Assembly: GCA_004296815.1 (NCBI GenBank)
Contig: SCVT01000655.1
Location: forward strand, 1-25,649
From: Reyranella sp.
Lineage (GTDB): Bacteria; Pseudomonadota; Alphaproteobacteria; Reyranellales; Reyranellaceae
Length of the DNA stretch: 25,649 bases
Reading direction: 5' to 3'
Shown here piece by piece: positions 4,337 to 18,821 of the stretch. Both the position numbers and the translations under genes were made by a program. The notes beneath the pieces are model-generated. The model did no database searches and was not told where the DNA came from. It worked only from the letters and a program-made list of their open reading frames with translations. How positions within the stretch are numbered: the stretch's first letter is position 1; each line of letters starts with the position of its first letter.

Positions 4337-4377
4337 GCACGGTCCTTGCTTCCCGGGGTTCTACAAGGGAGCCCCGC

Positions 4378-5445
4378 ATGACGAAGCCCAGAATCACCGC
4401 CCGTACCGCCGCTGGCTTCAATCGCCGCGCATTGCTCGCTGCCGCCGGCGCCGCGACGGCAGCCCTCGCCGCGCCGCGCATCCTACGCGCGCAGGGCAAG
4501 GAGCTCGTGATCGGCGGAGCGGCCAGCCACAAGAACTTTGTCGAGACGATCATCGGTCCAGCCGTCGAGAAAAAGTTCAACTGCAAGATCGTCTTCGAGG
4601 GATCGCGCTCGCTCGTGAACCTGGAGAAAATGCAGAAGAACAAGGACAAGCAGTACCTGTCGGTCGTTATGATGGACGATCCCGTCATGATCCCAGCCGT
4701 CGCCGAGGGCCTGCTCGACCCGATCACGACGGCCAAGGTGCCGAACATGGCGGCGTTGAAACCGGGCACCGTCCACATGGACGGAATGTGGGTAAACTAT
4801 CTGCAGCCCTGGCTCGGCATCGCCTACAACCCGAAGGCCATGAAGACCGCACCGACTTCATGGGCCGACGCCTATGACCCCAAGTACAAGGGTCGCGTCA
4901 TCCTGCCGTCGCTGCAGAACACGGAAGGGCTCGCCAACCTTTTCATGGCGGCCTTTCTCGCGACCGGGAAGCCGATGCCCGAGGCGCAGAAGGACATCGA
5001 CGCCGCCTTCAAGAAGCTGGTCACCATCAAGCCGAACCTGCTCACGGCCTACACGCAGATGCCACAGGCCTACAATCTGCTGGAGCAGGGCGAAGGTTTC
5101 ATGATCTCGAGCGCGATTTCGCAGGTCGCGATGGAGCGCAAGGTCGGCGGCGCGCCGGTCGACATCGCCGTGCCGAAGGAAGGCATCTTCGCCATGCCGT
5201 CGGGCGTGGCGTTGGTGAAGGGCGGCCCACAGCCCGAGCTGGCCGCTGGCTACATCAACGAAATGATCGGCCCCGAGGTGCAGGCTAAGCTCTCGACCGC
5301 GACCTACTCGCTGCCGACCAACAAGGACACGCCGGTTCCCCCCGGCGCACCGACCGGCGTCACCATCCACGGCATCGACTGGAAGTTCGTTGCGGACAAC
5401 CGCGCCGACTGGGTGAAGCGCTGGGACCGCGACATGTCGATGTAA
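4378..5445 (+). CDS. ABC transporter solute-binding protein (spermidine/putrescine/iron type)
   Basis: This periplasmic protein should capture the substrate of the ABC importer encoded by the next three genes. The 355-residue product begins with a Tat-like leader, NRRALLAAAG (15-24), an Ala-rich hydrophobic core and a likely cleavage site near LRAQG (36-40). The mature part resembles the extracellular solute-binding family that includes PotD and iron-binding proteins (PF13416-like), with motifs such as LQPWLGIAYNPKAM and WADAYDPKYKGRVILPS. The ATG at 4378 is chosen because AAGGGAG lies about 6 bases upstream and the leader begins there. That Shine-Dalgarno sequence falls in the loop of a small potential hairpin (CGGGG 4354-4358 with CCCCG 4372-4376). 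The substrate cannot be read from the sequence. Confidence 0.88.
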   Translation: MTKPRITARTAAGFNRRALLAAAGAATAALAAPRILRAQGKELVIGGAASHKNFVETIIGPAVEKKFNCKIVFEGSRSLVNLEKMQKNKDKQYLSVVMMDDPVMIPAVAEGLLDPITTAKVPNMAALKPGTVHMDGMWVNYLQPWLGIAYNPKAMKTAPTSWADAYDPKYKGRVILPSLQNTEGLANLFMAAFLATGKPMPEAQKDIDAAFKKLVTIKPNLLTAYTQMPQAYNLLEQGEGFMISSAISQVAMERKVGGAPVDIAVPKEGIFAMPSGVALVKGGPQPELAAGYINEMIGPEVQAKLSTATYSLPTNKDTPVPPGAPTGVTIHGIDWKFVADNRADWVKRWDRDMSM

Positions 5446-5452
5446 GCCGGCC

Positions 5453-6517
5453 GTGGCCGCCGAGTCGTTCCTCGATATACAAGGCGCCGAGAAGACATTC
5501 GGTGGCACCGCCGTCCTGGGTGGCGTCGACCTGAAGGTGGCGGCCGGCGAGTTCATCTCCCTTCTCGGCCCGTCGGGCTGCGGCAAGACCACCTTGCTGC
5601 GTATCGTGGCCGGCCTGCTCGCCGCCGACCGCGGCACGATCAGGCTGGACGGAGAGGATATCGGCGCCCGCCCGCCGCACCGGCGCGATGTCGGCGTCGT
5701 CTTCCAGAACTACGCGCTCTTCCCCCACCTTACGGTCGCCGAGAACATCGCGTTCGGCCTCAAGGCGCGGAAGCATCCGGCGGGCGAGATCGGCCCGACG
5801 GTGCGGCGCTTCCTGTCGCTGGTGCATCTCACGGACTTCGCCGACCGATCGGTACGCGCACTATCCGGCGGCCAGCAGCAGCGCGTGGCGGTGGCGCGTG
5901 CGCTGGCGGTGCACCCGAAGCTCCTGCTGCTCGACGAGCCCTTCTCCGCCCTCGACCGCAAGCTGCGGGAGAACATGCAGATCGAGCTGCGCCGCCTGCT
6001 GCGCGAGCTCGGCATCACCGCGGTGTTCGTGACGCACGACCAGGACGAGGCGCTCACCATGTCCGACCGCATCGCGGTGATGAACCGCGGTGCGATCGAG
6101 CAGCTGGCGCCGCCCGAGGAGATCTATCGCCGGCCGGCAACCGCCTTCGCACTGGAGTTCGTGGGCCTCTCCTCGCGCCTGGCCGGCAAGGTCCTCGGCA
6201 CAGAGCAGGGCCTCGTCTCGGTGCAAACCGCCTATGGCGTCCTGCGCGCGCCGGGCGACTTCGTGGCGGGCGCGCCCGTCATGCTCGCCGTGCGGCCCGA
6301 GCGCATCAGGGTCAACCCGCCACACGACTTCGCGTTGTCCGCGAAGCTCCGCGACACGGTCTTCCAGGGCGCCAAGGTCCAGCTCCACTTCCAGGCGCGC
6401 GACGGCGATAGCCTCATGGTGGAGACGTCGGACCTGCCGGACGGCCTGCCGCCGCCGAACACGGAGATGAAGCTCGGCTGGGCGGTCGCCGACACGCTGA
6501 TCTACCCGGCGCCATGA
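5453..6517 (+). CDS. ABC transporter ATP-binding protein (PotA-like)
   Basis: This is the cytoplasmic ATPase that powers the importer. In the 354-residue product the Walker A is GPSGCGKT (39-46), the Q-loop is VFQNYALFPHLTVAEN, the ABC signature is LSGGQQQR (137-144) and Walker B is LLLLDEP (157-163); the switch His is in VFVTHDQDEA. The C-terminal 100 residues include a TOBE-like regulatory domain with MLAVRPERIRV, as in PotA/FbpC proteins. The start is a GTG at 5453, 7 bases after the binding-protein stop; no in-frame ATG lies near the conserved N-terminus. Its last four bases overlap the first permease gene, which implies coupled translation. Confidence 0.93.
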   Translation: MAAESFLDIQGAEKTFGGTAVLGGVDLKVAAGEFISLLGPSGCGKTTLLRIVAGLLAADRGTIRLDGEDIGARPPHRRDVGVVFQNYALFPHLTVAENIAFGLKARKHPAGEIGPTVRRFLSLVHLTDFADRSVRALSGGQQQRVAVARALAVHPKLLLLDEPFSALDRKLRENMQIELRRLLRELGITAVFVTHDQDEALTMSDRIAVMNRGAIEQLAPPEEIYRRPATAFALEFVGLSSRLAGKVLGTEQGLVSVQTAYGVLRAPGDFVAGAPVMLAVRPERIRVNPPHDFALSAKLRDTVFQGAKVQLHFQARDGDSLMVETSDLPDGLPPPNTEMKLGWAVADTLIYPAP

Positions 6518-7365
6518 GCGTGCGCAGCGCCCCGTCGGTCTGGCGCGATCCCGTCGCGCTGCTCGCCGCGCCCGCCGTGCTCTACCTGCTCGTCGTCTAC
6601 GCCTTCCCGCTGTTCTGGCTGCTGATGAAGAGCTTCACCGGCCCGGCGGGCCCGACCGTGCAGCCCTACGTCGCGTTCATGGCCGATCCGTTCAACTGGC
6701 GCGTCATCGGCAACACGTTGCGGGTCGCGGCGTGGGTCACGCTGGTCTGCTTTCTCATCGGCTATCCCGCCGCCTTCGCCCTCGCGCGCGCCGGCGCATT
6801 CGTCCAGATCGTCATGCTGGTCTCGATCATCCTGCCGCTCTCGATCGGCGCCGTGGTCAAGGCATTCGCCTGGCAGATCGTGCTGCGCCGCGACGGCGTC
6901 GTCTCCCAACTCTTGCTCGGGCTCGGAATCTGGGACGAGCCGCAGCGCCTCTTGTTCACTGAGACAGGCCTCGTCCTGGGCGCCGCCAACATCTTCCTGC
7001 CCTTCATGATCCTGCCGATCTATTCGGTGGTGAAGCTGATCGACCCGCGGCTAAGCGAAGCCGGTGCGACGCTGGGCGCCACGCCGCTCTACCGCTTTGC
7101 CCACGTCACGCTGCCGCTCACCCTGCCAGGTGTCGTTTCCGGCATCGCCTTCGTCTTCTCGATGAGCGTGTCGATGTTCGTCATCCCGTCGCTGCTGATC
7201 GGCGACCGCTTCCAGACGCTCTCGACGCTCACCGGCCGCTCGTTCCTGCTGATGCGCAACGAGCAGCTCGGCTCGACGACCGCGGTCATCCTGCTGGTGC
7301 TGGCGGTCTCGATCGTCGTCGGCTCGACCTGGCTCGCGCGGCGGATGGGAGGCAGCACCACATGA
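6514..7365 (+). CDS. ABC transporter permease (PotB-like)
   Basis: This inner-membrane channel subunit has 283 residues with about six hydrophobic helices, beginning with one at roughly 15-35. The cytoplasmic EAA loop that docks on the ATPase is visible as SEAGATLGATPLYRFAHVTL, near residue 190. Gene order (binding protein, ATPase, permease, permease) and sequence both match the spermidine/putrescine type of importer. It begins with ATGA, where the ATG overlaps the ATPase stop, and it ends by overlapping the second permease start by 4 bases. Confidence 0.92.
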   Translation: MSVRSAPSVWRDPVALLAAPAVLYLLVVYAFPLFWLLMKSFTGPAGPTVQPYVAFMADPFNWRVIGNTLRVAAWVTLVCFLIGYPAAFALARAGAFVQIVMLVSIILPLSIGAVVKAFAWQIVLRRDGVVSQLLLGLGIWDEPQRLLFTETGLVLGAANIFLPFMILPIYSVVKLIDPRLSEAGATLGATPLYRFAHVTLPLTLPGVVSGIAFVFSMSVSMFVIPSLLIGDRFQTLSTLTGRSFLLMRNEQLGSTTAVILLVLAVSIVVGSTWLARRMGGSTT

Positions 7366-8162
7366 CGGCGATCGAGCGGTTCACGCGTTGGTTCGTCTGG
7401 GCCATGGCGGGCTTCACCGTCGTCTTCCTGATGACGCCGCTGATCGTCACGGTCGCCGTCTCGTTCGGCTCCTCGACCGTGTTCACCTTGCCGCCGCCCG
7501 ACTGGTCGACGCGCTGGTACGAACGGCTGGCCAACATGCGTGGCCTCCTGCCCGCCCTGGTCGTCTCGCTGCAGGTCGCGGCGATCTCCACCGCCGCCGC
7601 CATGGTGCTCGGCACGCTCTGCGCCATCGCGCTGGTACGCGGTCGCTTCCCCGGCCGCGAGACGATCTCGACCTTCCTCGTCTCGCCGCTGATGCTTCCC
7701 GGCCTGGTGATCGGCATCGCCATGCTGCAGGGCTTCAAGGCGATGGGCCTGCGCGACGTCTATGCGAGCCTGCTGGTGGCGCATGTCGTCATCACGCTCC
7801 CCTACGTCGTTCGCACGGTCGTGGGTGCCCTCTCGCTGTTAGACTTCTCGCTGATCGATGCGGCGCGCACGCTGGGCTGCTCCTATCCTGCCGCCCTGAT
7901 GCGCGTGCTGGTCCCGGCGTTGGCCCCGGCCTTCCTGACGTCGGGAATGTTCGCGTTCCTCGCCTCGATGGACAATTACCCGATCTCGATCTTCTTCACC
8001 GATGCCTGGACCAAGACACTCCCGATCCAGATGCTGCAATATGTCGAGGAGCGGCCGGACCCGACCATCGCCGCCATCTCCACCGGGCTCGTCCTTCTGG
8101 CCATCGTCGCCCTGATCATCGGTGACCGCCTCGTGGGATTGCGCAAGCTCGCCGATTTCTAG
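7362..8162 (+). CDS. ABC transporter permease (PotC-like)
   Basis: This is the second membrane subunit of the importer, 266 residues with about six helices. The EAA-type docking loop is IDAARTLGCSYPAALMRVLV (about 164-183). The region MDNYPISIFFTD is typical of PotC-like permeases. The start ATG overlaps the preceding stop by 4 bases. The stop is only 9 bases before the racemase-like gene, so all six genes from 4378 to 9795 are likely one transcript. Confidence 0.92.
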   Translation: MTAIERFTRWFVWAMAGFTVVFLMTPLIVTVAVSFGSSTVFTLPPPDWSTRWYERLANMRGLLPALVVSLQVAAISTAAAMVLGTLCAIALVRGRFPGRETISTFLVSPLMLPGLVIGIAMLQGFKAMGLRDVYASLLVAHVVITLPYVVRTVVGALSLLDFSLIDAARTLGCSYPAALMRVLVPALAPAFLTSGMFAFLASMDNYPISIFFTDAWTKTLPIQMLQYVEERPDPTIAAISTGLVLLAIVALIIGDRLVGLRKLADF

Positions 8163-8171
8163 CGGACCGAA

Positions 8172-8921
8172 ATGAAGATCCTGATCGCCAATCCCAACAT
8201 TTCCACCAGCGTTACCCACCGGCTCGTCGCCTCGGGCAAGCTCGTGGCGAGCCCAGGCACGGAGCTGATCCCCATGACGGCACCCCGAGGCGTGCCGTTC
8301 ATCGCCACACGCGCCGAGGCCGCGGTCGGCGGCGCGGTGCTGCTCGAGATGCTGGCGGAGAGGCGCGGCACCTTCGATGCCGCCGTCGTCGCCGCCTTCG
8401 GCGATCCCGGCCTCGGCGGCGCCCGAGAGCTCTTCGACTTCCCGGTGGTCGGCATGGCCGAGGCCGCGATGCTGGTCGCGTGCACGCTCGGCCGCTCGTT
8501 CGGCATCGTGAGCTTCTCGAAGTCGCTCGAGCCGTGGTTCGCCGAGATCGTAGCGTGGCATGGTCTCTCTGGTCGCTGCGTCGCGATCCGCACGCCGGAC
8601 GAAGGCTTCCGGTCGCTCAACAACGTGCAGGAAGAGATGGAGCAGCTCCTGATCGACCTCGCCAACCGCACGGTGGCCGACCACGGCGCCGACGTCGTGA
8701 TCCTGGCGGGCGCGCCGCTGGCGGGCCTCGCCAACAAGATCCGGGATCGCGTGCCGGTGCCGCTGGTCGACGGCATCCAGGCCGCGGTCACCATGGCCGA
8801 GGGGCTGGTGCGCATGAACCCGCGCAAAGCGACTGCCGGCACGTTCCGCCGCCCCGACCCGAAGGATTCCAAGGGACTCGCCGGCCCGCTCGCCGACGTG
8901 ATCGCGCACCGTGGCACGTGA
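8172..8921 (+). CDS. Asp/Glu/hydantoin racemase-fold protein lacking both catalytic cysteines
   Basis: The 249-residue protein clearly belongs to the Asp/Glu/hydantoin racemase superfamily: it starts MKILIANPNIS, has the FGDPG loop (76-80), GMAEAAM (94-100) and a C-terminal PLVDGIQAAV. Family racemases use two cysteines, one just before FGDPG and one in a later LGCAGM-like motif. Here these positions are A75 and G180 (the segment reads LAGAPLAGL). The only cysteines, C104 and C136, are elsewhere. Classical two-base racemisation is therefore unlikely; it may bind a ureide-like ligand or use other chemistry. It sits between the transporter and a PuuE-like amidohydrolase gene, and its last 11 bases overlap the start of that gene. 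The fold is well supported, the function is not. Confidence 0.82.
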   Translation: MKILIANPNISTSVTHRLVASGKLVASPGTELIPMTAPRGVPFIATRAEAAVGGAVLLEMLAERRGTFDAAVVAAFGDPGLGGARELFDFPVVGMAEAAMLVACTLGRSFGIVSFSKSLEPWFAEIVAWHGLSGRCVAIRTPDEGFRSLNNVQEEMEQLLIDLANRTVADHGADVVILAGAPLAGLANKIRDRVPVPLVDGIQAAVTMAEGLVRMNPRKATAGTFRRPDPKDSKGLAGPLADVIAHRGT

Positions 8922-9795
8922 CCTGAAAGGCTACGGGCGCACCCCGCCGGATCCGAAATGGCCGGGCGGCGCGCGCGTCGCCGTCTCCTTCGTGATCAAT
9001 TTCGAGGAGGGCGCGGAGATGTCGCTCTCGCAGGGCGATGCTTTCAACGAGAAGGTCTACGAGGTCACCGATGAGGTCGTGGGGGTGCCCGACCGCTGCA
9101 TGGAATCGCACTTCGAGTACGGCACCAAGGCCGCGTGGTGGCGCATCGCCGACGCGCTGGAGCGGCTGGGCGTGCACACTACCGTCAGCACCTGCGGCAT
9201 GGCGGCGGAACTGTCGCCGTGGCTGATCCGGGATGCCGTGGCGCGCGGCCACGAGATTTCCTGCCATGGCTGGCGCTGGGAGAAGCACGCCCACATGGCG
9301 GAAGCGGCCGAACGCGACGCCATTGCCAAGACCGTGAAGGTCCTGACCGAGATCGCGGGCACGCGGCCGGTCGGCTGGCATACCCGCTCCACGCCCTCGG
9401 TCAACACGCGCCGCCTGCTCGTCGAGGAGGGCGGCTTCCTCTACGACAGCGACGACTATTCGGACGATCTGCCGTTCTTCGTCGACGTGGCGAGCAAACG
9501 CCATCTCGTGCTGCCCTACAGCTTCGATACCAATGATATGCACTATCACCAGGGCTTCCACCGCTTCGTGTCGGCCCGCGACTTCGCCGACTACACGTGC
9601 GGCGCCTTCGACACGCTGTGGAGCGAAGGCGAGCGTTTCCCCAAGATGATGTCGATCGGCCTGCACCTGCGCATGATTGGCCGGCCGGGTCGTATCGCGG
9701 CGCTGGACCGCATCGTCAGCCACATGAAGGAGCGCGGCGGTGCCTGGTTCGCCACGCGCCGGCAGATCGCCGAGCACTGGCTCGTGCGCTTCTAG
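8911..9795 (+). CDS. Polysaccharide deacetylase family protein, PuuE/allantoinase-like
   Basis: This 294-residue NodB-fold protein resembles the PuuE (cofactor-independent allantoinase) branch more than cell-wall deacetylases. It has no signal peptide, and the usual metal-binding TFDDG is replaced by NFEEG (30-34). Typical PuuE-like features are FEYGTKAAWWRI (68-79), TCGMAAE (94-100) and SCHGWRWEKH (117-126). It is presumably a cytoplasmic C-N hydrolase acting on the compound imported by the adjacent ABC system; allantoin or another ureide is inference. The GTG start at 8911 overlaps the racemase-like gene by 11 bases, and no ATG precedes the conserved KGYGRTPPDPKWP. Its stop overlaps that of the convergent thioesterase gene. 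Confidence 0.85.
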   Translation: MARDLKGYGRTPPDPKWPGGARVAVSFVINFEEGAEMSLSQGDAFNEKVYEVTDEVVGVPDRCMESHFEYGTKAAWWRIADALERLGVHTTVSTCGMAAELSPWLIRDAVARGHEISCHGWRWEKHAHMAEAAERDAIAKTVKVLTEIAGTRPVGWHTRSTPSVNTRRLLVEEGGFLYDSDDYSDDLPFFVDVASKRHLVLPYSFDTNDMHYHQGFHRFVSARDFADYTCGAFDTLWSEGERFPKMMSIGLHLRMIGRPGRIAALDRIVSHMKERGGAWFATRRQIAEHWLVRF

Positions 9796-10262
9796 GCCTT
9801 CTTCGGGCGGACGATCTTGATCGTCGACGTGGCGTGCACGATCAGGCGGCCCTTCTCATCCTTGAGATCGCCGTCGAGGAAGCCGACCGAGCCGCCCCAG
9901 CGCATGACGCGGCCCTCGGCATAGACGATCCCCGGCCCCATCGCCTCGAAGAAGCTGATCTTGAGCTCGAGCGTCGGCACCGCAATGCCGAGCTTGCCCT
10001 TCACGATCGCGGCGTTGGCCATCGCCGTGTCGACCATGCCGGTGAGGAAACCGCCCTGGCAGATGCGGCCTTGCGAATGGCAGAAGGCCGGCACGACCTC
10101 GAAACGGAACCGCGCGTAGCCGCGTGCCGAGTCGATGTCGAGAATTTCGCCGTTCAATGTCTTGAGGACATCAGGCGCATTGGCCCGTAACGCGGCGAGT
10201 ATCTCCGAATCGTGCGCGAGATCCTTGGGAAAGTGCTCGAAATCAGGATGGGCTGAACTCAT
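9792..10262 (-). CDS. PaaI-like hotdog-fold thioesterase
   Basis: The 156-residue protein is a hotdog-fold thioesterase of the PaaI family, expected to cleave acyl-CoA thioesters in the cytoplasm. The core motif runs from about 60 to 82, with H62, the QGG at 69-71 in the position where many relatives have HGG, and D78 in GMVDTA as the probable catalytic acid. The beta strand VPTLELKISFFEAM (95-108) and the C-terminal ATSTIKIVRP complete the fold. It lies 10 bases downstream of the MarR gene on the same strand, so the regulator and thioesterase probably share a transcript. No Shine-Dalgarno sequence is visible before the ATG, which suggests coupled or leaderless translation. A thioesterase here fits the CoA-based enzymes encoded on the other side of the regulator. 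Confidence 0.85.
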   Translation of the reverse strand: MSSAHPDFEHFPKDLAHDSEILAALRANAPDVLKTLNGEILDIDSARGYARFRFEVVPAFCHSQGRICQGGFLTGMVDTAMANAAIVKGKLGIAVPTLELKISFFEAMGPGIVYAEGRVMRWGGSVGFLDGDLKDEKGRLIVHATSTIKIVRPKKA

Positions 10263-10272
10263 GGCGCGCGGA

Positions 10273-10761
10273 CTATAACGGACGCGCCGAGACCCGCACC
10301 TTCTCCAGCAGCTCGATCAGCGTCCGCGTTTCGGCCGCCGAAAGTCCCGACAGGATCCGCTTCTCGTGGGCGCGGACCAGCCGGCCGAACCGGGCGAGCG
10401 CCTTGCGACCGAACGGCGTGAGCGCAAGGGCATGTGTGCGGCCGTCGGTCGGCGATCTGTGCCGCACCAGGAGGTCCCGCGCCTGCAGGCGATCGAGGAT
10501 CGGCACCAGGGTCGAACGGTCGATGCCCAGCGCGCGGGCCAAAGCCATCTGGCTGAGACCGGCATTGCGCTCGACCAGCACCAGCAACCCGAACTCGCCC
10601 GGCGTCAGGGCCTCGCCGGCATGGGCGAAGGTGGCGGCGAAATCGGCGAACACAGCCGACTGCGTGCGGCGCAGGCCGTAGCCCAGCAGCGAGGGAAGCA
10701 AGCCGCGATCGAGGCTTCCGGCGAGCGGCTTGCCAGGGGACTTGGCGGGTGGACGGCCCAT
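10273..10761 (-). CDS. MarR family transcriptional regulator
   Basis: This is a winged-helix repressor of the MarR type, 162 residues from ATG 10761. The helix-turn-helix is LSQMALARALGIDRSTLVPILDRL and the wing is the basic loop RHRSPTDGRTHALALTPFGR, both typical. A TTG at 10797 would add 12 residues, but it falls inside the palindrome at 10783-10801, so I prefer the ATG even though neither has a clear ribosome site. It is transcribed away from the reductase operon, the usual arrangement for an autoregulated MarR repressor. MarR proteins next to acyl-CoA metabolism commonly respond to aromatic acids or their CoA esters; the ligand here is unknown. The stop codon lies in TTATAG, 10 bases before the thioesterase start. 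Confidence 0.92.
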   Translation of the reverse strand: MGRPPAKSPGKPLAGSLDRGLLPSLLGYGLRRTQSAVFADFAATFAHAGEALTPGEFGLLVLVERNAGLSQMALARALGIDRSTLVPILDRLQARDLLVRHRSPTDGRTHALALTPFGRKALARFGRLVRAHEKRILSGLSAAETRTLIELLEKVRVSARPL

Positions 10762-10782
10762 CGGGGGAGTGGTAAACGGAGA

Positions 10783-10801
10783 TTGTTTGGGGATCAAACA
10801 A
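10783..10801. promoter_or_regulatory. Probable MarR operator (palindrome TTGTTTG-N5-CAAACAA)
   Basis: A perfect 7-base inverted repeat, TTGTTTG (10783-10789) and CAAACAA (10795-10801), separated by GGGAT. It lies between the divergent MarR and reductase genes, 17 bases before the reductase ATG. Length and symmetry fit a MarR dimer site. The 17-base core pattern recurs at 17349-17365. Confidence 0.7.
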
Positions 10802-10818
10802 ATTCAGATCCGAGCACG

Positions 10819-11856
10819 ATGAGCTTCAAAGTACGCATCGCCCAGGCAGACCGCATCATTGACGTCCCCACCGGCGCCACCATCCTCGAGGCGGCGCTCG
10901 ATGCCGGTATCTCCTACCCGTTCGGCTGCCAGTCGGGCAACTGCGGCGCCTGCAAGTCGCATCTCGTCAAAGGCGAGGTGACGATGGAAGGCTACTCCGA
11001 GTTCGCTCTGTCGGACGAGGAGAAAGGCCGCGGCCTGATCCTCGCCTGCCGGGCCGTGCCCTGGGAGAAAAGCGAAGTGGCGTGGCTCGAAGAGGACGAC
11101 CTGATCGTCCACCCGCGCCGCCTGCTCGCCTGCAAGGTCGTCGGGCTCGACGACGCCACGCACGACATCAAGCGCATCCGCCTCGAGGTCGTCTCGGGCG
11201 GGCCGTTCGACTTCTCCGCCGGACAGTTCGCCTCCGTCACCTTCGACGGCTGCCCGCCACGCGACTACTCAATGGCCAACGTGCCGGGCGACCCGATCCT
11301 GGAATTCCATGTCCGGCGGACCGCAGGCGGTGCCACCAGCACGCACGTCGCGGAAAAGCTCTCGCTCGGCGACACCGTACGTGTCGAAGGCCCGTTCGGC
11401 CCCTCGTACCTGCGCGAGACCCATCGCGGCCCGATCATCGCCGTGGCCGGTGGTTCGGGCATGGCGCCGATCAAGTCGGTGGTGGAGCGGGCGCTGCAGA
11501 AGGACCTGCCGCAGCACATCTACTTCTATTTCGGCGTTCGCACCGAGCGCGACCTCTATCTGCACGACCATTTCGCGGCCCTGGCCGAGAAGCACAAGAA
11601 CCTCCACTTCGTGCCGGTGCTGAGCGAAGGCGACGGCATGAACCACCGCTGCGGCCTCGTGCACGAGGCCGTCGGCCGCGACTTCGACGAGCTGGACGGC
11701 TGCAAGGCCTATCTCGCGGGCCCTCCGGTCATGGTCGAAGCCGCGACCAGACTGTTCGAGGAACGCGGCATGCGACGCATCGATATCCACGCCGACGCCT
11801 TCTACACGGCGGCCGAGATGGCGAACGCGAACAAGAAGACGGGAGCGGAACTATGA
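10819..11856 (+). CDS. Ferredoxin-NAD(P)H reductase component of an oxygenase (2Fe-2S + FAD + NAD)
   Basis: This three-domain electron-transfer protein (345 residues) passes electrons from NAD(P)H through flavin to an iron-sulfur cluster and on to an oxygenase. The N-terminal ferredoxin domain holds the cluster ligands C37, C42, C45 and C77 (CQSGNCGAC...C). The FAD domain has RDYSMAN (148-154) and the nucleotide domain GGSGMAP (211-217), ending in AGPPVMVEA. Having ferredoxin first is the order of DmpP, BenC and XylA; PaaE has ferredoxin last. It is the first gene of the operon controlled from the palindrome at 10783-10801, and its stop overlaps the SDR start by 4 bases. The likely electron acceptor is the diiron protein encoded at 12798. 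The CDP-6-deoxyhexose reductase annotation often given to such proteins does not fit this context. Confidence 0.9.
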   Translation: MSFKVRIAQADRIIDVPTGATILEAALDAGISYPFGCQSGNCGACKSHLVKGEVTMEGYSEFALSDEEKGRGLILACRAVPWEKSEVAWLEEDDLIVHPRRLLACKVVGLDDATHDIKRIRLEVVSGGPFDFSAGQFASVTFDGCPPRDYSMANVPGDPILEFHVRRTAGGATSTHVAEKLSLGDTVRVEGPFGPSYLRETHRGPIIAVAGGSGMAPIKSVVERALQKDLPQHIYFYFGVRTERDLYLHDHFAALAEKHKNLHFVPVLSEGDGMNHRCGLVHEAVGRDFDELDGCKAYLAGPPVMVEAATRLFEERGMRRIDIHADAFYTAAEMANANKKTGAEL

Positions 11857-12785
11857 CGGACCTTCTGAAGGGACGCTCGGCGATCGTCACCGGCGCCGGC
11901 CGCGGTATCGGCCGCGCCATCGCCGAAGCGCTGGTCGCCGAGGGTGCCAGCGTGATCGTGGCCGACAACGGCGCCTCGATCGCGGGCGACGGCGGCGACC
12001 ACGAGGTTGCACGCGAGGCCGCCAAGGCGCTAGGCAAGAACGCCATCGCCTTCGGCGAGAGCGTCGCCTCGCCGGGCGTCGCCAAGCAGCTCGTCGACCT
12101 CGCGGTGAAGAACTTCGGCGGCATCGACATCGTCGTGAACAACGCGGCGATCCTGCGCGACGCCTTCGTGTTCCGCGCTGATCCAGGCGATTGGGACGCT
12201 GTGATCCGCACCAACCTGTCGGCCGCTTTCTATCTGATCAATGCCGCGTCGGGAGTGATGCGCGACCAGGGCAAGGCAGGCCGCGGTGGCAAGGACGGCT
12301 ACGACTGGGGCCGCATCGTCAACATCGTCTCGTCGGCCGGCCTCTACGGCAATCTCGGACAGGCGGCCTATGCCAGCGCCAAGGCGGGCCTGTTCGGCCT
12401 GACGCGCGTCACCGCCATGGATCTCGCGCGCGCCCAGATCACCGCCAACGCCGTGGCGCCGTTCGCCCGCACGCGTGTCACCGACATCATCCAACCGGCC
12501 AATGAAGCGCAGAAGACCTACAAGGAACGCGCCCTCAAGATCGGCGCCCACCACGTCGCCAATCTGGTGACCGCGCTCTGCTCGCCCACCGGCAAGTCGA
12601 TCACCGGCCAACTCCTGGGCGTGCGCGGCCGCGAGGTCTTCCTGTTCGGCCAGCCACGTCCTGTGGGCAAGCTCGAGGCCGGCTCGCCGGCAGGCATCGC
12701 GCAGGATCTCGCCGGCAAGCTCGGTAGCCAGTTCACCGATCTCACCACCGATCTCGAAGCCTTCAACACCGAACCTCTCGTCTGA
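11853..12785 (+). CDS. Short-chain dehydrogenase/reductase (hydroxyacyl-CoA dehydrogenase-like)
   Basis: This NAD(P)-dependent SDR has 310 residues, against about 250 for a simple SDR. The cofactor loop is TGAGRGIG (13-20), NNAA is at 96-99, and the catalytic set is N121, S161, Y173 and K177 (YASAKAG). The segment after the second beta strand (VADNG then GDGGD, 36-49) recalls the hydroxyacyl-CoA dehydrogenase domain of peroxisomal multifunctional enzyme 2, which suggests a hydroxyacyl-CoA or similar alcohol substrate. The C-terminal 60 residues extend beyond the core, with a glycine-rich LLGVRGREVFLFGQPRP. The ATG overlaps the reductase stop and the diiron gene follows after 12 bases. Confidence 0.88.
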   Translation: MTDLLKGRSAIVTGAGRGIGRAIAEALVAEGASVIVADNGASIAGDGGDHEVAREAAKALGKNAIAFGESVASPGVAKQLVDLAVKNFGGIDIVVNNAAILRDAFVFRADPGDWDAVIRTNLSAAFYLINAASGVMRDQGKAGRGGKDGYDWGRIVNIVSSAGLYGNLGQAAYASAKAGLFGLTRVTAMDLARAQITANAVAPFARTRVTDIIQPANEAQKTYKERALKIGAHHVANLVTALCSPTGKSITGQLLGVRGREVFLFGQPRPVGKLEAGSPAGIAQDLAGKLGSQFTDLTTDLEAFNTEPLV

Positions 12786-12797
12786 GGAGAGCCACCC

Positions 12798-13505
12798 ATG
12801 ACCGAGTCCATCACCGTCAAGACCGTCGAGGAGCTGAAGGACGCGCCGGAGGAATACCGCGAGGCCGTGGCCAAGCTCGTGATCAGCCACGCCATCAACG
12901 AGCTCTATGGCGCCCAGGTGTTCGACGAGCCGGCCATCGCCTATGCACCGACGCCTTACGCCAAGTGGCTGACCTGCCGCGTCGCCATGGAGGAATACGG
13001 CCATCACGTCCGCTTCCGGCAGCTCGGCGTGCAGATGGGCATCCCCGAGGAGCGCATGGTCCCCGGCACCGGCAAGAAGCCGCTGTCGATCTTCGAGTTC
13101 CCGCTCAAGACCTGGGAGGAGTTCGTCGCCATCAAGCTCTTGGCCGACCTCGCCGAGATCCTGCAGGTCGAGGACCTGCTGCACTGCACCTTCCATCCAC
13201 TGCGCAACCTCGCGCGCGCGACCATGCCGGAGGAGCGCTTCCACGCGCAGTTCGGCGAAGACTTCACCGCCGAGCTCGTCAAGACGCCACAGGGCAAGGA
13301 GACGCTGCAGGCCGCCGTGAACGAGTACTTCCCCTACTTGCCCTCGTTCTTCGGCGGCTCGAAGTCGAGGAACAACGAGATCTTCCGCAAGTGGAACATC
13401 AAGCAGCGTACCAATGACGAGATGCGCGCCGACTTCATGACGCGCGCGACCGAGGTTGCCAGCAAGTACGGCCTCACCCTGCCGGAGGTCCGGCAGGCGG
13501 CGTGA
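12798..13505 (+). CDS. PaaA-like diiron oxygenase subunit (phenylacetyl-CoA epoxidase family)
   Basis: This 235-residue ferritin-like helical protein carries the six-ligand diiron pattern of bacterial multicomponent monooxygenases: E35, E66 with H69 (EEYGHH), E120 (or E125), and E146 with H149 (EERFH). The sequence fits the phenylacetate-catabolism family (COG3396, PaaA/PaaC), but the protein is shorter than PaaA (about 310) and no PaaB, PaaC or PaaD gene is adjacent. With a reductase encoded upstream it probably forms a compact oxygenase acting on a CoA thioester or a free ring or alkene. A strong GGAGAG precedes the ATG, and the next gene overlaps by GTGA. The diiron assignment is well supported by motifs; the substrate is not known. 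Confidence 0.85.
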   Translation: MTESITVKTVEELKDAPEEYREAVAKLVISHAINELYGAQVFDEPAIAYAPTPYAKWLTCRVAMEEYGHHVRFRQLGVQMGIPEERMVPGTGKKPLSIFEFPLKTWEEFVAIKLLADLAEILQVEDLLHCTFHPLRNLARATMPEERFHAQFGEDFTAELVKTPQGKETLQAAVNEYFPYLPSFFGGSKSRNNEIFRKWNIKQRTNDEMRADFMTRATEVASKYGLTLPEVRQAA

Positions 13506-14059
13506 GCGACGTCATCGGACTGCCGGCGGCCACGCTCGCGCGCCTCAAGGCGGAGCTTCGCGCGGCGTCGTGGTTCGCCGCCCTGGGCGAGCCCCTGACG
13601 GGAGGCGATCGCACCGATGCCGCAGCCTATGCAGGCGCACTCGGTCTCGGAGGACTGACCATCGACCTGGCGAAGGACTGGCCGGAAGCCGAGCGGCTCC
13701 TGAAATCGTCCGACTGGTCCTCGCACTTGTGGGACCGCGAGGAGGCGCTGCGCCGCGATCTGCTCCAGCGCGCGGAAGCTCACTATCCCGAGCGTGCGCT
13801 CTGGACGGCTCTTACAGAGCTCACCACCGAGGCCGGTGACCTCGTACACGGCAAGGCCGCCACCGCCGCGTCCCGCATGGGCAACGCGGCGAAGGCGTCC
13901 ATCCACGTCGCGGCGGGCGCAGCCTCGCAGGCCGTCTACCAGCTCGCCGTTGCGCGACTCGCCGGCGACGCGGCGTCGCCCTTCGAAAGCAAGTTCCGTT
14001 TGTTCGCGGCCGGCCGCTGGCCGCTCGGCGTCGTGGGCTCTAGGGTGATTCTCTTCTGA
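13502..14059 (+). CDS. Uncharacterised protein coupled to the diiron oxygenase gene
   Basis: I do not recognise this 185-residue protein. It starts at GTG 13502, which overlaps the diiron-gene stop by 4 bases, so it is very likely translated with it. The first 110 residues are helical and charged, with several Trp (W24, W60, W72, W77, W101). Residues 118-155 form an Ala-rich amphipathic stretch. It ends in a distinctive GRWPLGVVGSRVILF (171-185) that looks like a conserved tail. There is no signal peptide, clear membrane span or metal motif. Context suggests an accessory subunit or assembly factor of the oxygenase, but that is inference. Codon use and coupling make it a real gene. Confidence 0.72.
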   Translation: MSDVIGLPAATLARLKAELRAASWFAALGEPLTGGDRTDAAAYAGALGLGGLTIDLAKDWPEAERLLKSSDWSSHLWDREEALRRDLLQRAEAHYPERALWTALTELTTEAGDLVHGKAATAASRMGNAAKASIHVAAGAASQAVYQLAVARLAGDAASPFESKFRLFAAGRWPLGVVGSRVILF

Positions 14060-14072
14060 GGAGCAGCCTTCG

Positions 14073-14909
14073 ATGAATGCCTACACAGCCCCGCCGCGCA
14101 CTGTCGGCCGGCTGAAACGCCCCTTCGGCGACCTCTACTATGAAGTGTCCGGCAGCGGCCCCGCCCTTCTCTTCGCCCATGGGCTGGGCGGCAATCACCT
14201 GAGCTGGTGGCAGCAGGTCGCGCACTTCGCGCCGAACTACACTTGCGTGACCTTTGCGCATCGCGGCTTCGCGCCCTCCGACCCGGTGGCCGGCGGCGTC
14301 GACCCTGCCGATTATCCGGCCGACCTCACCGCATTGATCGATCACCTGCATCTCCCCGACGTGCGTCTCGTCGCGCAGTCGATGGGCGGCTGGACCATGC
14401 TCGAATATGCGCTCGCCAATCCGGCGCGCGTGAAGGCGCTGGTCCTCAGCTCGACCTCGGGCACGCTCGACCGCCGCGGCAGCGACCCCTCCGGCGGACG
14501 TGACTACGACGCCTGGCTGAAGGATGCCGAGGCCAAGCTCGCCGACGGCGCGGCGAAGGGAATTCACCCTGCGATGGGCGCCCGGGCGGCGGAGCGAGTG
14601 CCCGCGCTGCACCTTCTCTATCGCAGCATCGACGAGATGGCCGGCAAGCTTGACAAGGAGAAGCTCCGTGCCGGCCTGCGCCGCACCGCGACCCGCACCG
14701 TCGCCGAATTCAAGGCGTTCCGCGTGCCGACCCTGCTGATCGCCGGCGGCGAGGACGTCGTCTTCCCGCCGTTCCTGGCAAGCGCCATCGCGGCAACCCT
14801 GCCCTGCGGCGAGGCGGAGATGATCGGCGATGCCGGCCACTCGCCATACTTCGAGCAGCCCGCTAGATTCAACGCGCTGGTCGACGCGTTCCTCGCGCGA
14901 CAGCGCTAG
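14073..14909 (+). CDS. Alpha/beta hydrolase
   Basis: This is a 278-residue alpha/beta-fold hydrolase with a complete catalytic set: oxyanion-loop HGLGGN (36-41), nucleophile S103 in AQSMGG, acid D228 in GGEDVV, and base H256 in GDAGHSPY. It resembles the ring-fission-product hydrolase and enol-lactonase type used in aromatic degradation (MhpC/PcaD-like), though lipases and haloperoxidases share the fold. GAGGAG precedes the ATG, 13 bases after the previous stop, so it belongs to the same operon. A role in hydrolysing an oxidised or ring-opened product is plausible but unproven. Confidence 0.9.
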   Translation: MNAYTAPPRTVGRLKRPFGDLYYEVSGSGPALLFAHGLGGNHLSWWQQVAHFAPNYTCVTFAHRGFAPSDPVAGGVDPADYPADLTALIDHLHLPDVRLVAQSMGGWTMLEYALANPARVKALVLSSTSGTLDRRGSDPSGGRDYDAWLKDAEAKLADGAAKGIHPAMGARAAERVPALHLLYRSIDEMAGKLDKEKLRAGLRRTATRTVAEFKAFRVPTLLIAGGEDVVFPPFLASAIAATLPCGEAEMIGDAGHSPYFEQPARFNALVDAFLARQR

Positions 14910-14915
14910 GAGGAG

Positions 14916-16448
14916 ATGGTGTCCAAGGACAATCCGCGAATTGCCGTCCTCGGCTTCGCGATCGAGTGCAATCGCTTCTCGCCGGTCACCACCGCGGAAG
15001 ATTTCGAGCAGGACGTCGACATCCGCGGCAACCGCATCGTGAGCGAGGCCCGCTCGGGCAAGTCGATCACCATGCCCGACCTGCCGGGCTTCTTCACCGA
15101 GATGGATCGCACCGGCGACTGGACGCCTGTACCGCTGCGGGTCTCGCTCGCCCAACCTGGCGGACCGGTCGCGGAAAAGTTCTTCAAGGACTATCTTGCC
15201 GAGATCGAGGCGGGCCTGAAGTCGGTGCTGCCGGTCGACGCGGTGTTCGTGTCGTGCCATGGCGCAGCGCTCGCCGAGGGCACCGACGATCCCGACGGCG
15301 ACCTGTTCGAGCTGCTGCGCCGCATCGCCGGTCCGGATGTGCCGATCGTGTCGGTGTTCGACCTGCACGCCAACGTCTCGCGCCGCATGATCGACAATCT
15401 GAGCGTCTTCGTCGGCTATCTCGAAAACCCGCACACCGACATCTACGAGCGCGGCGTGGAGGCCGCCAAGCACATGCGGGAGCTGCTCACCGGAACGAAG
15501 ACGGCGATCGAGATGGTCAAGATCCCGCTGGTGCCACCGCAAATCGCCCTGCTGACGGCCAAGGGCCCTTACGCCGACCTGATCAAGTACGGCCAGACCA
15601 AGGTCGGCGGCGACATCCTGAACGTCTCGGTGATGGCAGGCTTCGCTTACAGCGACAGCCCGAAGAACGGCCTGACCGCGGTCGTCACCGCGCGCAACGG
15701 CAACGCTAAGGCCGCGGCCGATCTCTCGCTCGACATCGCCAAGCGGGCCTGGGGCATGAAGGAGCGCTTCAAGCGCGCGATGATGTCGCTCGCCGACGCC
15801 GTCCAGCTCGCCGTGTCGGTTGGACGCGACCGACGACGCAAGCCGATCATCCTGGCCGACGTGGCGGATAATCCCGGTGGCGGCGGGCGCGGCAACACCA
15901 CCTACCTCCTGCGGGCGCTGAAGAGCGCCAGGGCGCAGGGCGTGATCTTCGGCGTGTTCAACGACGCGGCGCTGGCCGCCCAGGCGCACGGGCTGGGTGA
16001 AGGCGCGATCTTCAACGCCTCGTTCAATACGAAGGAACACCAGGAATTCTCCCTGCCCTTCGACTGCGAGGCCAAGGTCGTGAAGCTGTCGGACGGCCAG
16101 TATGTCGGCCGGCGAGGCGTGCTGAAGAATGTGTCTTCCGACATGGGCCCGTCCGCGCTGCTCGACCTCGGTGGCATCCAGGTCGTGGTCATCTCCAACC
16201 GCTGCCAGTGCATGGACCCGCGTCAGTTCGAGATGTTCGGACTCGACATCGCCCAGGCGCGCGTCGTCGTGGTGAAGAGCCGCGGCCATTTCCGCGGCGG
16301 CTTCGACGAGTTCTTCAAGCCCGAGCAGATCTACGAAGTCGACTGCCCCGGCCTGACCTCGCCGGTGCTGGCGAACTTCACCTGGACCAAGCTGCCGCGG
16401 CCGGTCTATCCGCTCGACGAGGAGACGAGCTGGACGCCGCCCGCGTAA
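14916..16448 (+). CDS. M81 family metallopeptidase (MlrC-like)
   Basis: This 510-residue protein belongs to the M81/MlrC family, named after the enzyme that finishes breakdown of linearised microcystin; most relatives have unknown substrates. Likely metal ligands are H115 in SCHGAAL, D149 and H151 in DLHANVS, and H173 in NPHTD; the N-terminal ECNRFSP (17-23) and C-terminal SRGHFRGGFDEFF are also typical. No signal peptide is present. AGGAGG lies only 2 bases before ATG 14916 but 5 bases before an in-frame GTG at 14919, so the true start may be that GTG (509 residues). It is the last gene of the 10819-16448 block and converges on the pirin gene with a 6-base gap. It may cleave an amide bond in the pathway substrate. 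Confidence 0.88.
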   Translation: MVSKDNPRIAVLGFAIECNRFSPVTTAEDFEQDVDIRGNRIVSEARSGKSITMPDLPGFFTEMDRTGDWTPVPLRVSLAQPGGPVAEKFFKDYLAEIEAGLKSVLPVDAVFVSCHGAALAEGTDDPDGDLFELLRRIAGPDVPIVSVFDLHANVSRRMIDNLSVFVGYLENPHTDIYERGVEAAKHMRELLTGTKTAIEMVKIPLVPPQIALLTAKGPYADLIKYGQTKVGGDILNVSVMAGFAYSDSPKNGLTAVVTARNGNAKAAADLSLDIAKRAWGMKERFKRAMMSLADAVQLAVSVGRDRRRKPIILADVADNPGGGGRGNTTYLLRALKSARAQGVIFGVFNDAALAAQAHGLGEGAIFNASFNTKEHQEFSLPFDCEAKVVKLSDGQYVGRRGVLKNVSSDMGPSALLDLGGIQVVVISNRCQCMDPRQFEMFGLDIAQARVVVVKSRGHFRGGFDEFFKPEQIYEVDCPGLTSPVLANFTWTKLPRPVYPLDEETSWTPPA

Positions 16449-16454
16449 CGACGA

Positions 16455-17333
16455 TCACCGATCCGGCAACGGGATGAACTCGTTGTCGCCCGGCACCTTC
16501 GGGAAACGCTGATCGCGCCAGTCGGCCTTCGCCTTCTCGATGCGTTCCTTGCTCGACGACACGAAGTTCCACCAGATGTGACGCGGCCCGTCCATCGTGG
16601 CGCCGCCCAGCAGCATCGCCTTGGCACCTGCAGTTCCGGCGACGGCCTCGACTGCCTGTCCCGGGGCGAGCACGGCGAGATCGCCGACGCCCAGCGTGCG
16701 CTCGCCTACTGTCAGTGAGCCGTCGGCTAGGTAGATCGCTCGCTCCGCATGCTCGGGCGACACGACGAGCCTGCCGCCTGCGGCTGCTTCGACACCGACA
16801 TAGAAGATGGGCGAGAAGTGCGTGGTGGGCGCCGTGCGCCCCGCATAGGTGCCGACGATCAGACGCTGCGCCACGCCCCCCTCGGACCATGCCGGCAACT
16901 TGGCCGCTTCGACATGCTCGAAGGCCGGGTCCGTCTCCTCGTGCGTCATGGGGAGAGCGACCCACGTCTGGACGCCATGCATACGGAAGCCGGTGGCGCG
17001 CATCTCGGGCTCGGTGCGCTCGCTGTGGACGATGCCGCGGCCGGCGGTCATCCAGTTGACGTCGCCGGGCTTGATCGGCTGGGCGAAGCCCAGGCTGTCG
17101 CGATGGAAGATGCCGCCGTCGAACAGGTAGGTGACGGTCGCCAGACCGATATGGGGATGCGGCCGCACTTCCATGCCGCCGCCCGGCGGCACGTCCATCG
17201 GTCCGAAATGATCGAGGAAGATGAAGGGGCCGACCATGCGCCGCTTGACGCTGGGCAGCACACGCCGCACCGCGAAGCCGCCGCCCAGATCGTGCGCCCT
17301 GCCCTGGATCAGTAGCTCGATCGCGTCGGCCAT
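16455..17333 (-). CDS. Pirin family protein
   Basis: Pirins are bicupin, usually iron-binding proteins; some bacterial ones have quercetinase or redox-regulatory activity. In the 292-residue product the four canonical metal ligands are present: H59 and H61 (RPHPHIG), H103 and E105 (VHSE). The C-terminal cupin is intact to PGDNEFIPLPDR. The ATG at 17333 is chosen because GAGGAG lies 6 bases upstream; an in-frame upstream TTG would put the start inside the palindrome at 17348-17366. The gene diverges from the acyl-CoA synthetase gene with that palindrome between them, so it is probably under the same MarR control. Its substrate is unknown. Confidence 0.9.
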   Translation of the reverse strand: MADAIELLIQGRAHDLGGGFAVRRVLPSVKRRMVGPFIFLDHFGPMDVPPGGGMEVRPHPHIGLATVTYLFDGGIFHRDSLGFAQPIKPGDVNWMTAGRGIVHSERTEPEMRATGFRMHGVQTWVALPMTHEETDPAFEHVEAAKLPAWSEGGVAQRLIVGTYAGRTAPTTHFSPIFYVGVEAAAGGRLVVSPEHAERAIYLADGSLTVGERTLGVGDLAVLAPGQAVEAVAGTAGAKAMLLGGATMDGPRHIWWNFVSSSKERIEKAKADWRDQRFPKVPGDNEFIPLPDR

Positions 17334-17347
17334 CTTGTTCTCCTCGA

Positions 17348-17366
17348 ATGTTTGTGCTGCAAACAA
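17348..17366. promoter_or_regulatory. Second probable MarR operator (TGTTTG-N5-CAAACA)
   Basis: A perfect 6-base inverted repeat, TGTTTG (17349-17354) and CAAACA (17360-17365), spaced by TGCTG, lies between the divergent pirin and acyl-CoA synthetase genes. The arms and the 5-base spacer length match the site at 10783-10801 next to the MarR gene, while the spacer sequences differ, as expected for a protein-binding site. It ends 7 bases before the synthetase ATG. Confidence 0.65.
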
Positions 17367-17372
17367 ATCTTC

Positions 17373-18821
17373 ATGGCAACCCGTCGCGACCTCTCACCCT
17401 TCTTCGCCCCCGACAGCATTGCCATCGTCGGCGCCGGCGAGCGCGCCACCTCGTCGGGCGGAGCGGTCATGCAGATGCTGCGCCAGGCGGGTTATGGCGG
17501 AAGGGTCGTTCCGGTCAATCCCAAGGGCGGCACCATCTTCGGTTACGAGTCGGTGACCTCGATCGGCGCCATGGACCAGCCGGTCGACCTCGCCGTCATC
17601 GTCATCCGGCCCGACGCCATTCTCGAGGCGGTCGGCGAAGCGGCCGATCGCGGCATCCGCAACCTGCTGATCCTGCCCGGCGGCTTCGCGGAAGCCGGCC
17701 CCTCGGGCGTGGCGCGGAACGATGCGCTGCTGAAGATCGCCGCCGAGCGGAACCTCACCATCGCCGGGCCGAACTGCGCCGGCCTCATCCACCTCGACCC
17801 GGCCAAGCGTTTCGCCGCGACCTTCCTGCGCGACCTGCCGCCGGGCAGCAGGGCCGGCAACGGCCTCGCCTTCGTCTCGCAGTCCGGCGCGCTGGCCGAG
17901 GAGTTCATCGACAAGGCCAACGCCCGCAACCTGCCGCTGATGTCGGTGGTCTCGGTCGGCAACGCCATCCATCTCGGTGTCGAGGACTATCTCGACTGGC
18001 TGGGCGATCGGCCGGAAATCGGCGCGGCCCTTCTCTACGTCGAGTCGATCGAGGACCACGAACGCTTTCGCGAGGTCGCGCGCCGGGTCTCGGCGAAGAA
18101 GCCCGTCATCGCCCTGTTCGGCGGTCGCACCGAGATCGGCGGCAGAGCGGCGGCTGCCCATACCGGCGCCGTCGCCAACACCGACGCGGCCATCGACGCC
18201 TTCTGCACCTCCTGCGGCATCGTCCGCGTGGAGAGCCTGCGCAGGCTACTGCTGGCGGCGAAGGCTTTCGGTCGGTTCCCCCAAGGTCTCGGGCGGCGGG
18301 CCCTGATCCTCTCCAACTCCGGCGGACCGGGCGTGCTCTGCGCCGACCGTGCCGTGCTGGAGGGCCTCGACCTCGCAGCGCTGCCGATCGCAATGGCCGA
18401 TGTCCTCCGCCAGCAGCTGCCCGCCGAGGCGTCCGTCGCCAATCCGATCGACCTGCTGGCGGATGCCCGGGAGGACCGGTTCGGCCTGACGTTCGAGGCG
18501 GCGATGGACCATGCTTCCCAGGCCTACGACATGGTCCTGATGATCCATGTCGTGCCGTTCATGGTCGACGCCGGGCCGGTCATCGAGCGGATGGCGGGCC
18601 TCGCGGCGGGTGCACGTCTGCCCGTGATGCACAGCATGATGGGGACGCTCCCCGGCAAGGCCGGTTGGTTCGCCACTATGGAACGGGCCGGCGTTCCGAT
18701 GTTCAACGATGTCGAGGAAATGGCCGAGGCGGCCGGCCTCCTGGCGCGCCACCGCGCCCTTCGCAGCGCAGCATCGGCTGCCTCTTTTCCTGTGACCTTT
18801 CGCGACCGGCGGGCAGGCTGA
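17373..18821 (+). CDS. ADP-forming acyl-CoA synthetase, alpha (CoA-binding/ligase) part only
   Basis: This 482-residue protein corresponds to the alpha half of NDP-forming acyl-CoA synthetases (acetyl-CoA synthetase, ADP-forming; CoA-binding plus succinyl-CoA-ligase-like domains). Visible are the N-terminal Rossmann CoA-binding domain (SIAIVGAG, 15-22; PVNPKGG, 47-53), GPNCAG (132-137), SQSGALAEEF (169-178), and the phosphohistidine loop AAAHTGA with H263. The ATP-grasp beta domain that usually follows (full proteins are about 700 residues) is absent; the frame ends after residue 482 and the next gene is unrelated. The partner must be encoded elsewhere, or this form has another role. The start is ATG 17373, because the upstream in-frame TTG lies inside the palindrome. 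No ribosome site is seen, so the message may be leaderless. Confidence 0.85.
   Translation: MATRRDLSPFFAPDSIAIVGAGERATSSGGAVMQMLRQAGYGGRVVPVNPKGGTIFGYESVTSIGAMDQPVDLAVIVIRPDAILEAVGEAADRGIRNLLILPGGFAEAGPSGVARNDALLKIAAERNLTIAGPNCAGLIHLDPAKRFAATFLRDLPPGSRAGNGLAFVSQSGALAEEFIDKANARNLPLMSVVSVGNAIHLGVEDYLDWLGDRPEIGAALLYVESIEDHERFREVARRVSAKKPVIALFGGRTEIGGRAAAAHTGAVANTDAAIDAFCTSCGIVRVESLRRLLLAAKAFGRFPQGLGRRALILSNSGGPGVLCADRAVLEGLDLAALPIAMADVLRQQLPAEASVANPIDLLADAREDRFGLTFEAAMDHASQAYDMVLMIHVVPFMVDAGPVIERMAGLAAGARLPVMHSMMGTLPGKAGWFATMERAGVPMFNDVEEMAEAAGLLARHRALRSAASAASFPVTFRDRRAG

Follow-up and report, generated by a model that had tools for sequence, protein, structure and literature searches.

Does a single MarR-family regulator control the enzyme genes around it through two copies of one palindrome? 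The question is raised by a 25,649-nt stretch of DNA from a Reyranella sp. (contig SCVT01000655.1), hereafter the window, in which the 17-nt inverted repeat TGTTTG-N5-CAAACA occurs exactly twice. Site 1, the candidate operator 1 (TGTTTG-GGGAT-CAAACA, positions 10784 to 10800), lies between the divergent genes for a MarR-family regulator (marR, 10273 to 10761, reverse strand, ATG at 10761) and for a BenC/MmoC-like 2Fe-2S/FAD/NAD reductase (10819 to 11856, forward strand, ATG at 10819). Site 2, the candidate operator 2 (TGTTTG-TGCTG-CAAACA, 17349 to 17365), lies between the divergent genes for pirin (16455 to 17333, reverse strand, ATG at 17333) and for an alpha-type nucleoside diphosphate-forming acyl-coenzyme A (acyl-CoA) synthetase (acs, 17373 to 18821, forward strand, ATG at 17373), all four genes being assigned by domain searches. 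With the starts chosen from the sequence, both sites are intergenic, in gaps of 57 bp and 39 bp, respectively. We estimate at about 0.8 the probability that the palindromes are operators of the adjoining MarR protein and that the locus is a small CouR-like aromatic-acid regulon. A first-pass annotation of the window, made by eye, had placed four transcripts under this one protein. Three of them (marR-thioesterase, the reductase operon, and acs) are well supported in this genome, while control of the fourth, pirin, by operator 2 is possible and unproven, being suggested by proximity alone. A repeat noticed by eye has thereby become a defined operator candidate with a genome-wide count of two, which ties together a gene set with a putative aromatic-acid substrate.

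Occurrence of the palindrome in the genome and its relatives

The two copies share identical arms and a spacer of equal length with different bases (GGGAT in site 1, TGCTG in site 2), just as the first-pass annotation had described them at these positions, and its statement that the window holds no third copy is borne out even at ≤2 mismatches. In 100 dinucleotide shuffles of the window, the palindrome matched 0.14 times on average, and none of the 100 contained two matches. The genome-wide scan that had been proposed along with the sites covered 4,641,910 bases in 770 contigs (89.5% complete) and returned two exact copies, both of them the intergenic sites of the window, vs none for the reversed control. 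With ≤2 mismatches allowed, there were 12 places for the palindrome and 12 for the reversed control, and no place had exactly one mismatch; therefore, the signal in this genome consists of the two exact sites only. A larger regulon in this genome was considered and rejected, as neither an exact copy nor one with a single mismatch exists beyond these two.

A profile of the PaaA-like protein encoded in the reductase operon served to collect relatives; of 158, the best 80 were taken, and their loci, all in named genomes, total 1.29 Mb. These loci contain 48 exact palindromes, vs 0 for each of 14 palindromes with permuted arms. For the count at the reductase start (from 300 bp upstream to 30 bp downstream), 10 of the 80 loci were dropped (6 without a reductase match and 4 without a reductase start), leaving 39 close and 31 distant ones. 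Of the close loci, 33 have an exact site, 38 have one with at most one mismatch, and all 39 have one with at most two, so that the conservation in orthologous gaps by which the first-pass annotation had proposed to judge the palindromes is found for site 1. In the distant loci, the corresponding numbers are 5, 15, and 19 of 31. Permuted arms give no match at ≤1 mismatch in either set, and when the spacer was set to 3, 4, 6, or 7 bp, matches at that level appeared with 4 bp alone, in 2 of the 31 distant loci. The divergent gene encodes MarR in each of the 39 close loci, which gives the locus the hallmark of a local MarR regulon, an inverted repeat between a regulator gene and a divergent gene that is conserved in orthologous gaps.

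Several of the distant copies have the longer symmetric form ATTGTTTG-N5-CAAACAAT. In locus L108, overlapping tandem palindromes are seen at 6113-6145 and 7907-7939 (with 0 + 2 and 0 + 1 mismatches, respectively), an arrangement that could seat two repressor dimers. A variant with 2 mismatches, TGTTAG-N5-CATACA, is found at L076:2334-2350 and L080:2243-2259, each time just before the same conserved cluster of open reading frames (ORFs).

A scan of 65 genomes of the genus, including the one studied here, detected 51 exact copies (summed from the table of the scan) in 41 genomes, vs 2 for the reversed control. Among the 30 exact-copy loci that were read, the palindrome lies between marR and the reductase gene in 26, between pirin and acs in 3, and next to marR in 1, where the reductase is about 0.8 kb away; at least 2 of the exact copies in the genus lie elsewhere than in these settings. 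A chance origin of the palindrome is rejected by the window shuffles, the genome count, the permuted arms, the genus scan, and the reductase-start scan. The pattern is real and conserved.

A CouR-like regulator and the proposed promoters at its candidate sites

Domain searches place the regulator in the MarR family (PF12802, 53.5 bits at a cut-off of 27; PF01047, 44.4 bits at a cut-off of 24.6). Its nearest solved MarR structure by sequence is the CouR-named 6c28 (1.8e-24, the next one being at 1.3e-10), which we take to be CouR of Rhodopseudomonas palustris. CouR thus appears to be its closest characterized relative, the likeness being a resemblance in sequence.

As described in the published account (PMC4737184), CouR of Rhodococcus jostii RHA1 recognizes an inverted repeat with a 5-bp spacer and the arms ATTGA/TCAAT; one such box lies between the divergent couN and couR genes, over both −35 boxes, and the protein, whose Arg36 and Arg38 contact the CoA phosphates, leaves the DNA with p-coumaroyl-CoA. 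On that account (PMC4737184), the two systems would share a MarR repressor, an inverted repeat with a 5-bp spacer, a box between divergent genes over a −35 element, and several promoters in one small catabolic regulon. They differ in the arms, which are TGTTTG/CAAACA in Reyranella, and in content: CouR controls p-hydroxycinnamate genes and has an established ligand, whereas the Reyranella genes encode a PaaA-like protein, a reductase, and a short-chain dehydrogenase (SDR). The Saro_0803-nov1 system of Novosphingobium, as described (PMC10046596), likewise has a MarR gene divergent to an oxygenase gene and a repeat over the −10 element, as proposed here for site 2. It differs in the repeat (GCAATA...TATTGC) and in its ligand, resveratrol, and the Reyranella MarR protein scores below the cut-off of the Saro_0803 family. 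With the CouR box over −35 and the Saro_0803 repeat over −10, both geometries proposed here have precedents.

The promoters themselves are read from conservation. The possible marR promoter (10769 to 10797, reverse strand) would consist of a −35 box TTGATC at 10792-10797, inside operator 1, a 17-bp spacer, and a −10 box TACCAC at 10769-10774, 7 nt from the ATG. At a fixed distance from site 1 and 7 to 8 nt before the marR ATG, TACCAC is present in 37 of 38 rows and TACCAT in the other; the TTG of the −35 box sits in the arm by which the rows were picked, so the independent support consists of TACCAC and the spacing. TACCAC may therefore be the −10 box of marR, in which case the transcript would be leaderless. 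The acs promoter (17335 to 17363, forward strand) would have a −35 box TTGTTC at 17335-17340, a 17-bp spacer, and a −10 box TGCAAA at 17358-17363, 9 nt from the ATG. All 25 listed rows (the window and 24 loci), which were picked by the core, show TTG-N17-TGCAA followed by 6 to 9 nt to the ATG; three of them also have an earlier ATG triplet at 2 to 3 nt, and L069, missed by the row pattern, has TTGTTC at the same spacing. This arrangement suggests that the acs transcript is leaderless. Operator 1 would then cover the −35 element of marR and operator 2 the −10 element of acs.

Most likely, the locus is an ordinary MarR switch of a known kind, placed on a little-known pathway. A MarR dimer would bind TGTTTG-N5-CAAACA and block RNA polymerase. 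From site 1, which is 18 nt upstream of the reductase start and overlies the possible −35 box of marR, it would repress both marR-thioesterase and the operon that runs from the reductase through the SDR, the PaaA-like protein, a hypothetical protein, and a hydrolase to an M81 family protein; from site 2, over the presumed −10 box of acs, it would repress acs. By analogy with CouR, the aromatic substrate, in the form of its CoA thioester, is the most likely candidate for the inducer. As this thioester may be the product of acs, site 2 would close a positive feedback loop, one that is done without in 17 of the 25 pirin/acs gaps compared below.

It is rather unlikely, if still deserving of attention, that the ligand of the MarR protein is a stilbene-like compound or a phenolic acid in free form, as opposed to a CoA ester. 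Its best NCBIfam match is the Saro_0803 equivalog model NF053777, at 97.5 bits, well below the cut-off of 200, and Saro_0803 is reported to respond to resveratrol (PMC10046596). However, the closest solved structure is that of CouR, and both a thioesterase and an acyl-CoA synthetase sit in the regulon, which fits a CoA thioester better.

Gain or loss of site 2 over a promoter-like core of acs

The pirin/acs gaps of the window and 24 loci (L045, with its partial acs, was left out) differ in whether they carry the second operator. Site 2 is exact in 7 of the 25 and has one mismatch in 1; the spacer TGCTG is common to all 8, presumably because it coincides with the −10 region of acs. The remaining 17 lack the arms, and the two-site arrangement is not a fixed trait of the genus. 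The exact core TGTGCTGCAA is nevertheless kept in 15 of these 17 armless gaps. In the other two, L065 and L066, where pirin is further off, a variant of the core lies just before acs, and the same is true of L067, which has no adjacent pirin; therefore, the core belongs to acs. In these three loci, the −35 element is also free of overlap with the pirin start. At the arm positions, most of the armless gaps agree on different bases, of the CGCCTG and CAACGG types. As a genome-wide element, TGTGCTGCAA was rejected, with 1 genome copy vs 7 for the control on both strands. A leader peptide running through site 2 was rejected by eye because the reading frame differs between species, as was a sigma-54 promoter in the pirin/acs gap, the spacing of which does not fit.

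On a 27-row tree, site 2 is scattered and needs 5 changes, or 4 without L045 and L067, whose state is unclear. It needs 6 changes on the acs tree, 5 on the pirin tree, and 4 on the reductase-SDR-PaaA tree, and in each of these three the row nearest to the window by path is one without site 2; horizontal transfer of the acs-pirin block as the source of the scatter is accordingly not supported. For the whole acs row, the top identity belongs to a fragment with site 2, L054 (149 columns), so the comparison was limited to the first 155 acs residues of every row: L034, which lacks site 2, then leads at 91.4%, with L054 third at 90.6%. At the DNA level, the best matches for this part of acs are L036 and L034, neither of which has site 2. 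The tree counts and the acs comparison therefore suggest that the operator arms came or went several times over a promoter-like core that was kept. By the tree reading, repeated gain would take fewer events, but about 6 base changes would be required for each gain; the exchange of a short tract covering the gap alone is also conceivable as a source of the scatter. The 8 gaps with and 17 without the second operator form a natural series in which the promoter-like core is retained, suited to the study of how a repressor site is gained and lost over a promoter and of whether feedback on the inducer-making step matters.

That acs belongs to the system is indicated by its placement in relatives: many distant loci have it after the genes of the reductase operon, and L074 and L077 have it in a tandem arrangement with marR. 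Its link is therefore independent of site 2. The coregulation of acs that the first-pass annotation had read from site 2 in this genome is thus upheld from a second side.

The pattern of arms and core also bears on the idea that site 1 is a MarR operator while site 2 is a chance by-product of the acs promoter core TGTGCTGCAA in some species. The spacer and the inner arm bases are indeed kept whether or not the arms are present, and most gaps lack the site. However, all 12 arm positions are exact in 7 gaps, and 11 of 12 are exact in an eighth; the armless gaps mostly share other arm bases, so the full set must have been replaced jointly on several occasions; and the 4.64-Mb genome has no other exact copy, all of which makes a by-product improbable. 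More improbable still is that a different regulator, with its gene at another place, binds the palindrome, the adjoining MarR protein being incidental: marR is not divergent within 1 kb of the reductase in 20 of the 31 distant loci (13 have it elsewhere and 7 have no match), several of which still have the site, but the divergent gene is the same marR throughout the close set, a further exact copy lies near marR in L074 and in L108, and the form and position of the repeat fit MarR operators of this kind.

Several findings weigh against the preferred reading, in which both palindromes are operators of the adjoining MarR protein. This protein is under the NCBIfam cut-off for all 9 regulators listed. 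Near the reductase start, 12 of the 31 distant loci have no site at ≤2 mismatches, and two of the permuted arms reach 32 of the 39 close loci at 2 mismatches (the others, at most 2). The 17 gaps without the arms of site 2 include those of the nearest relatives of the window. The −35 element of acs overlaps the pirin start and ribosome-binding region, possibly conserved in its own right, in 22 of the 25 rows; that of marR coincides with an operator arm and so cannot count as separately conserved; and no clear promoter is readable upstream of the reductase operon or pirin. The domain search returned no ATP-grasp match for acs, whose catalytic role is putative. Finally, an extra exact copy in genome G034, which lies at the end of a contig and shares bases with the upstream end of a long open frame, is unexplained.

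The gene set, its probable pathway, and further copies

Downstream of marR lies a gene for a 4HBT hotdog thioesterase (9792 to 10262, reverse strand). On the forward strand, the reductase gene is followed by those for the SDR (11853 to 12785), the PaaA/PaaC-family (PF05138) protein, a putative diiron monooxygenase (12798 to 13505), a conserved 185-aa protein without a Pfam or NCBIfam match (13502 to 14059), an alpha/beta hydrolase (14073 to 14909), and an M81 (MlrC) family protein, the last of the operon (14916 to 16448); from the reductase to the M81 gene, neighbors are spaced by ≤13 bp or overlap. The PaaA-like protein matches PF05138 at 102 bits (cut-off, 28.5) and stays below the PaaA equivalog TIGR02156 (91.7 bits vs a cut-off of 280). 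Two E-x-x-H motifs (E66/H69 and E146/H149), of the kind that bind iron in diiron proteins, are present in 22 of 22 aligned sequences, that of the window included, as expected of an active diiron protein. The 185-aa protein, for which the predicted model is confident and mostly helical, remains close to the PaaA-like gene in different families (by an alignment of 19 sequences) and is a possible partner subunit. No ATP-grasp gene was seen beside acs. By eye, the adjoining part of the window, from 4200 to 9795 on the thioesterase side, holds a polyamine-type ABC transporter operon along with racemase-like and polysaccharide-deacetylase-like genes; clusters of the latter two kinds were each picked in at least 19 of the 80 loci.

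The phenylacetyl-CoA epoxidase complex is PaaABCDE, and its neighborhood resembles this one in combining a PF05138 protein, an FNR-type reductase, and a hotdog thioesterase. In contrast, the Reyranella PaaA-like protein misses the PaaA cut-off, domain searches match no gene of the operon to PaaB, and many of the distant loci have a gentisate-dioxygenase cluster. Among 40 distant loci, at least 24 have this cluster and at least 14 have an FAA-hydrolase cluster, both counts being lower bounds because the ORF picking misses genes; one representative of the former scores above the TIGR02272 cut-off for gentisate 1,2-dioxygenase. The distant loci also hold hotdog thioesterases, AMP-binding ligases, and, in many cases, tripartite ATP-independent periplasmic (TRAP) transporters. 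There is no gentisate 1,2-dioxygenase among the ten window proteins scanned; one above the cut-off is encoded elsewhere in the same genome (C287), and 62 of the 65 genomes of the genus, this one included, have one.

The gene set thus probably serves a CoA-dependent route into gentisate, which narrows the undescribed pathway of the first-pass annotation. In its simplest form, the route would begin with uptake of an aromatic acid and its activation to a CoA thioester, followed by ring oxygenation by the PaaA-like protein and the reductase; the SDR would then carry out a dehydrogenation, and cleavage of the thioester would lead to ring cleavage of gentisate or a similar substrate. A bolder combination, which we advance tentatively and as more apt to fail than to hold in full, is that the PaaA-like diiron monooxygenase, the reductase, and the SDR convert an aroyl-CoA to gentisyl-CoA, which the thioesterase frees for ring cleavage in an undescribed aerobic route, and that, in this genus, changes to the operator arms around an untouched promoter core repeatedly bring the CoA synthetase that makes the inducer under MarR control or release it.

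Apart from the copy in G034, another exact copy outside the two gaps comes from genome G010, which we take to be Enhydrobacter aerosaccus, where it lies 16 nt before the start of a gene for a TRAP solute-binding protein (L159:2845-2878, G010:C17). The protein is 37% identical over 315 aa to one encoded near the cluster in L079. Many distant loci have TRAP transporters along with the cluster, and the G010 gene therefore looks like a member of the regulon. This copy is about 210 kb from the main locus, and the frames that follow it resemble TRAP membrane subunits by eye. In addition, two loci of the genus, L160 (G039) and L161 (G058), have marR, the reductase, the SDR (in G058, merely 47 to 57% identical), and the exact operator, and no PaaA-like gene was matched in either, nor is there room for one between the SDR and the next matched gene; here, the monooxygenase appears to have been deleted while the switch stays in place.

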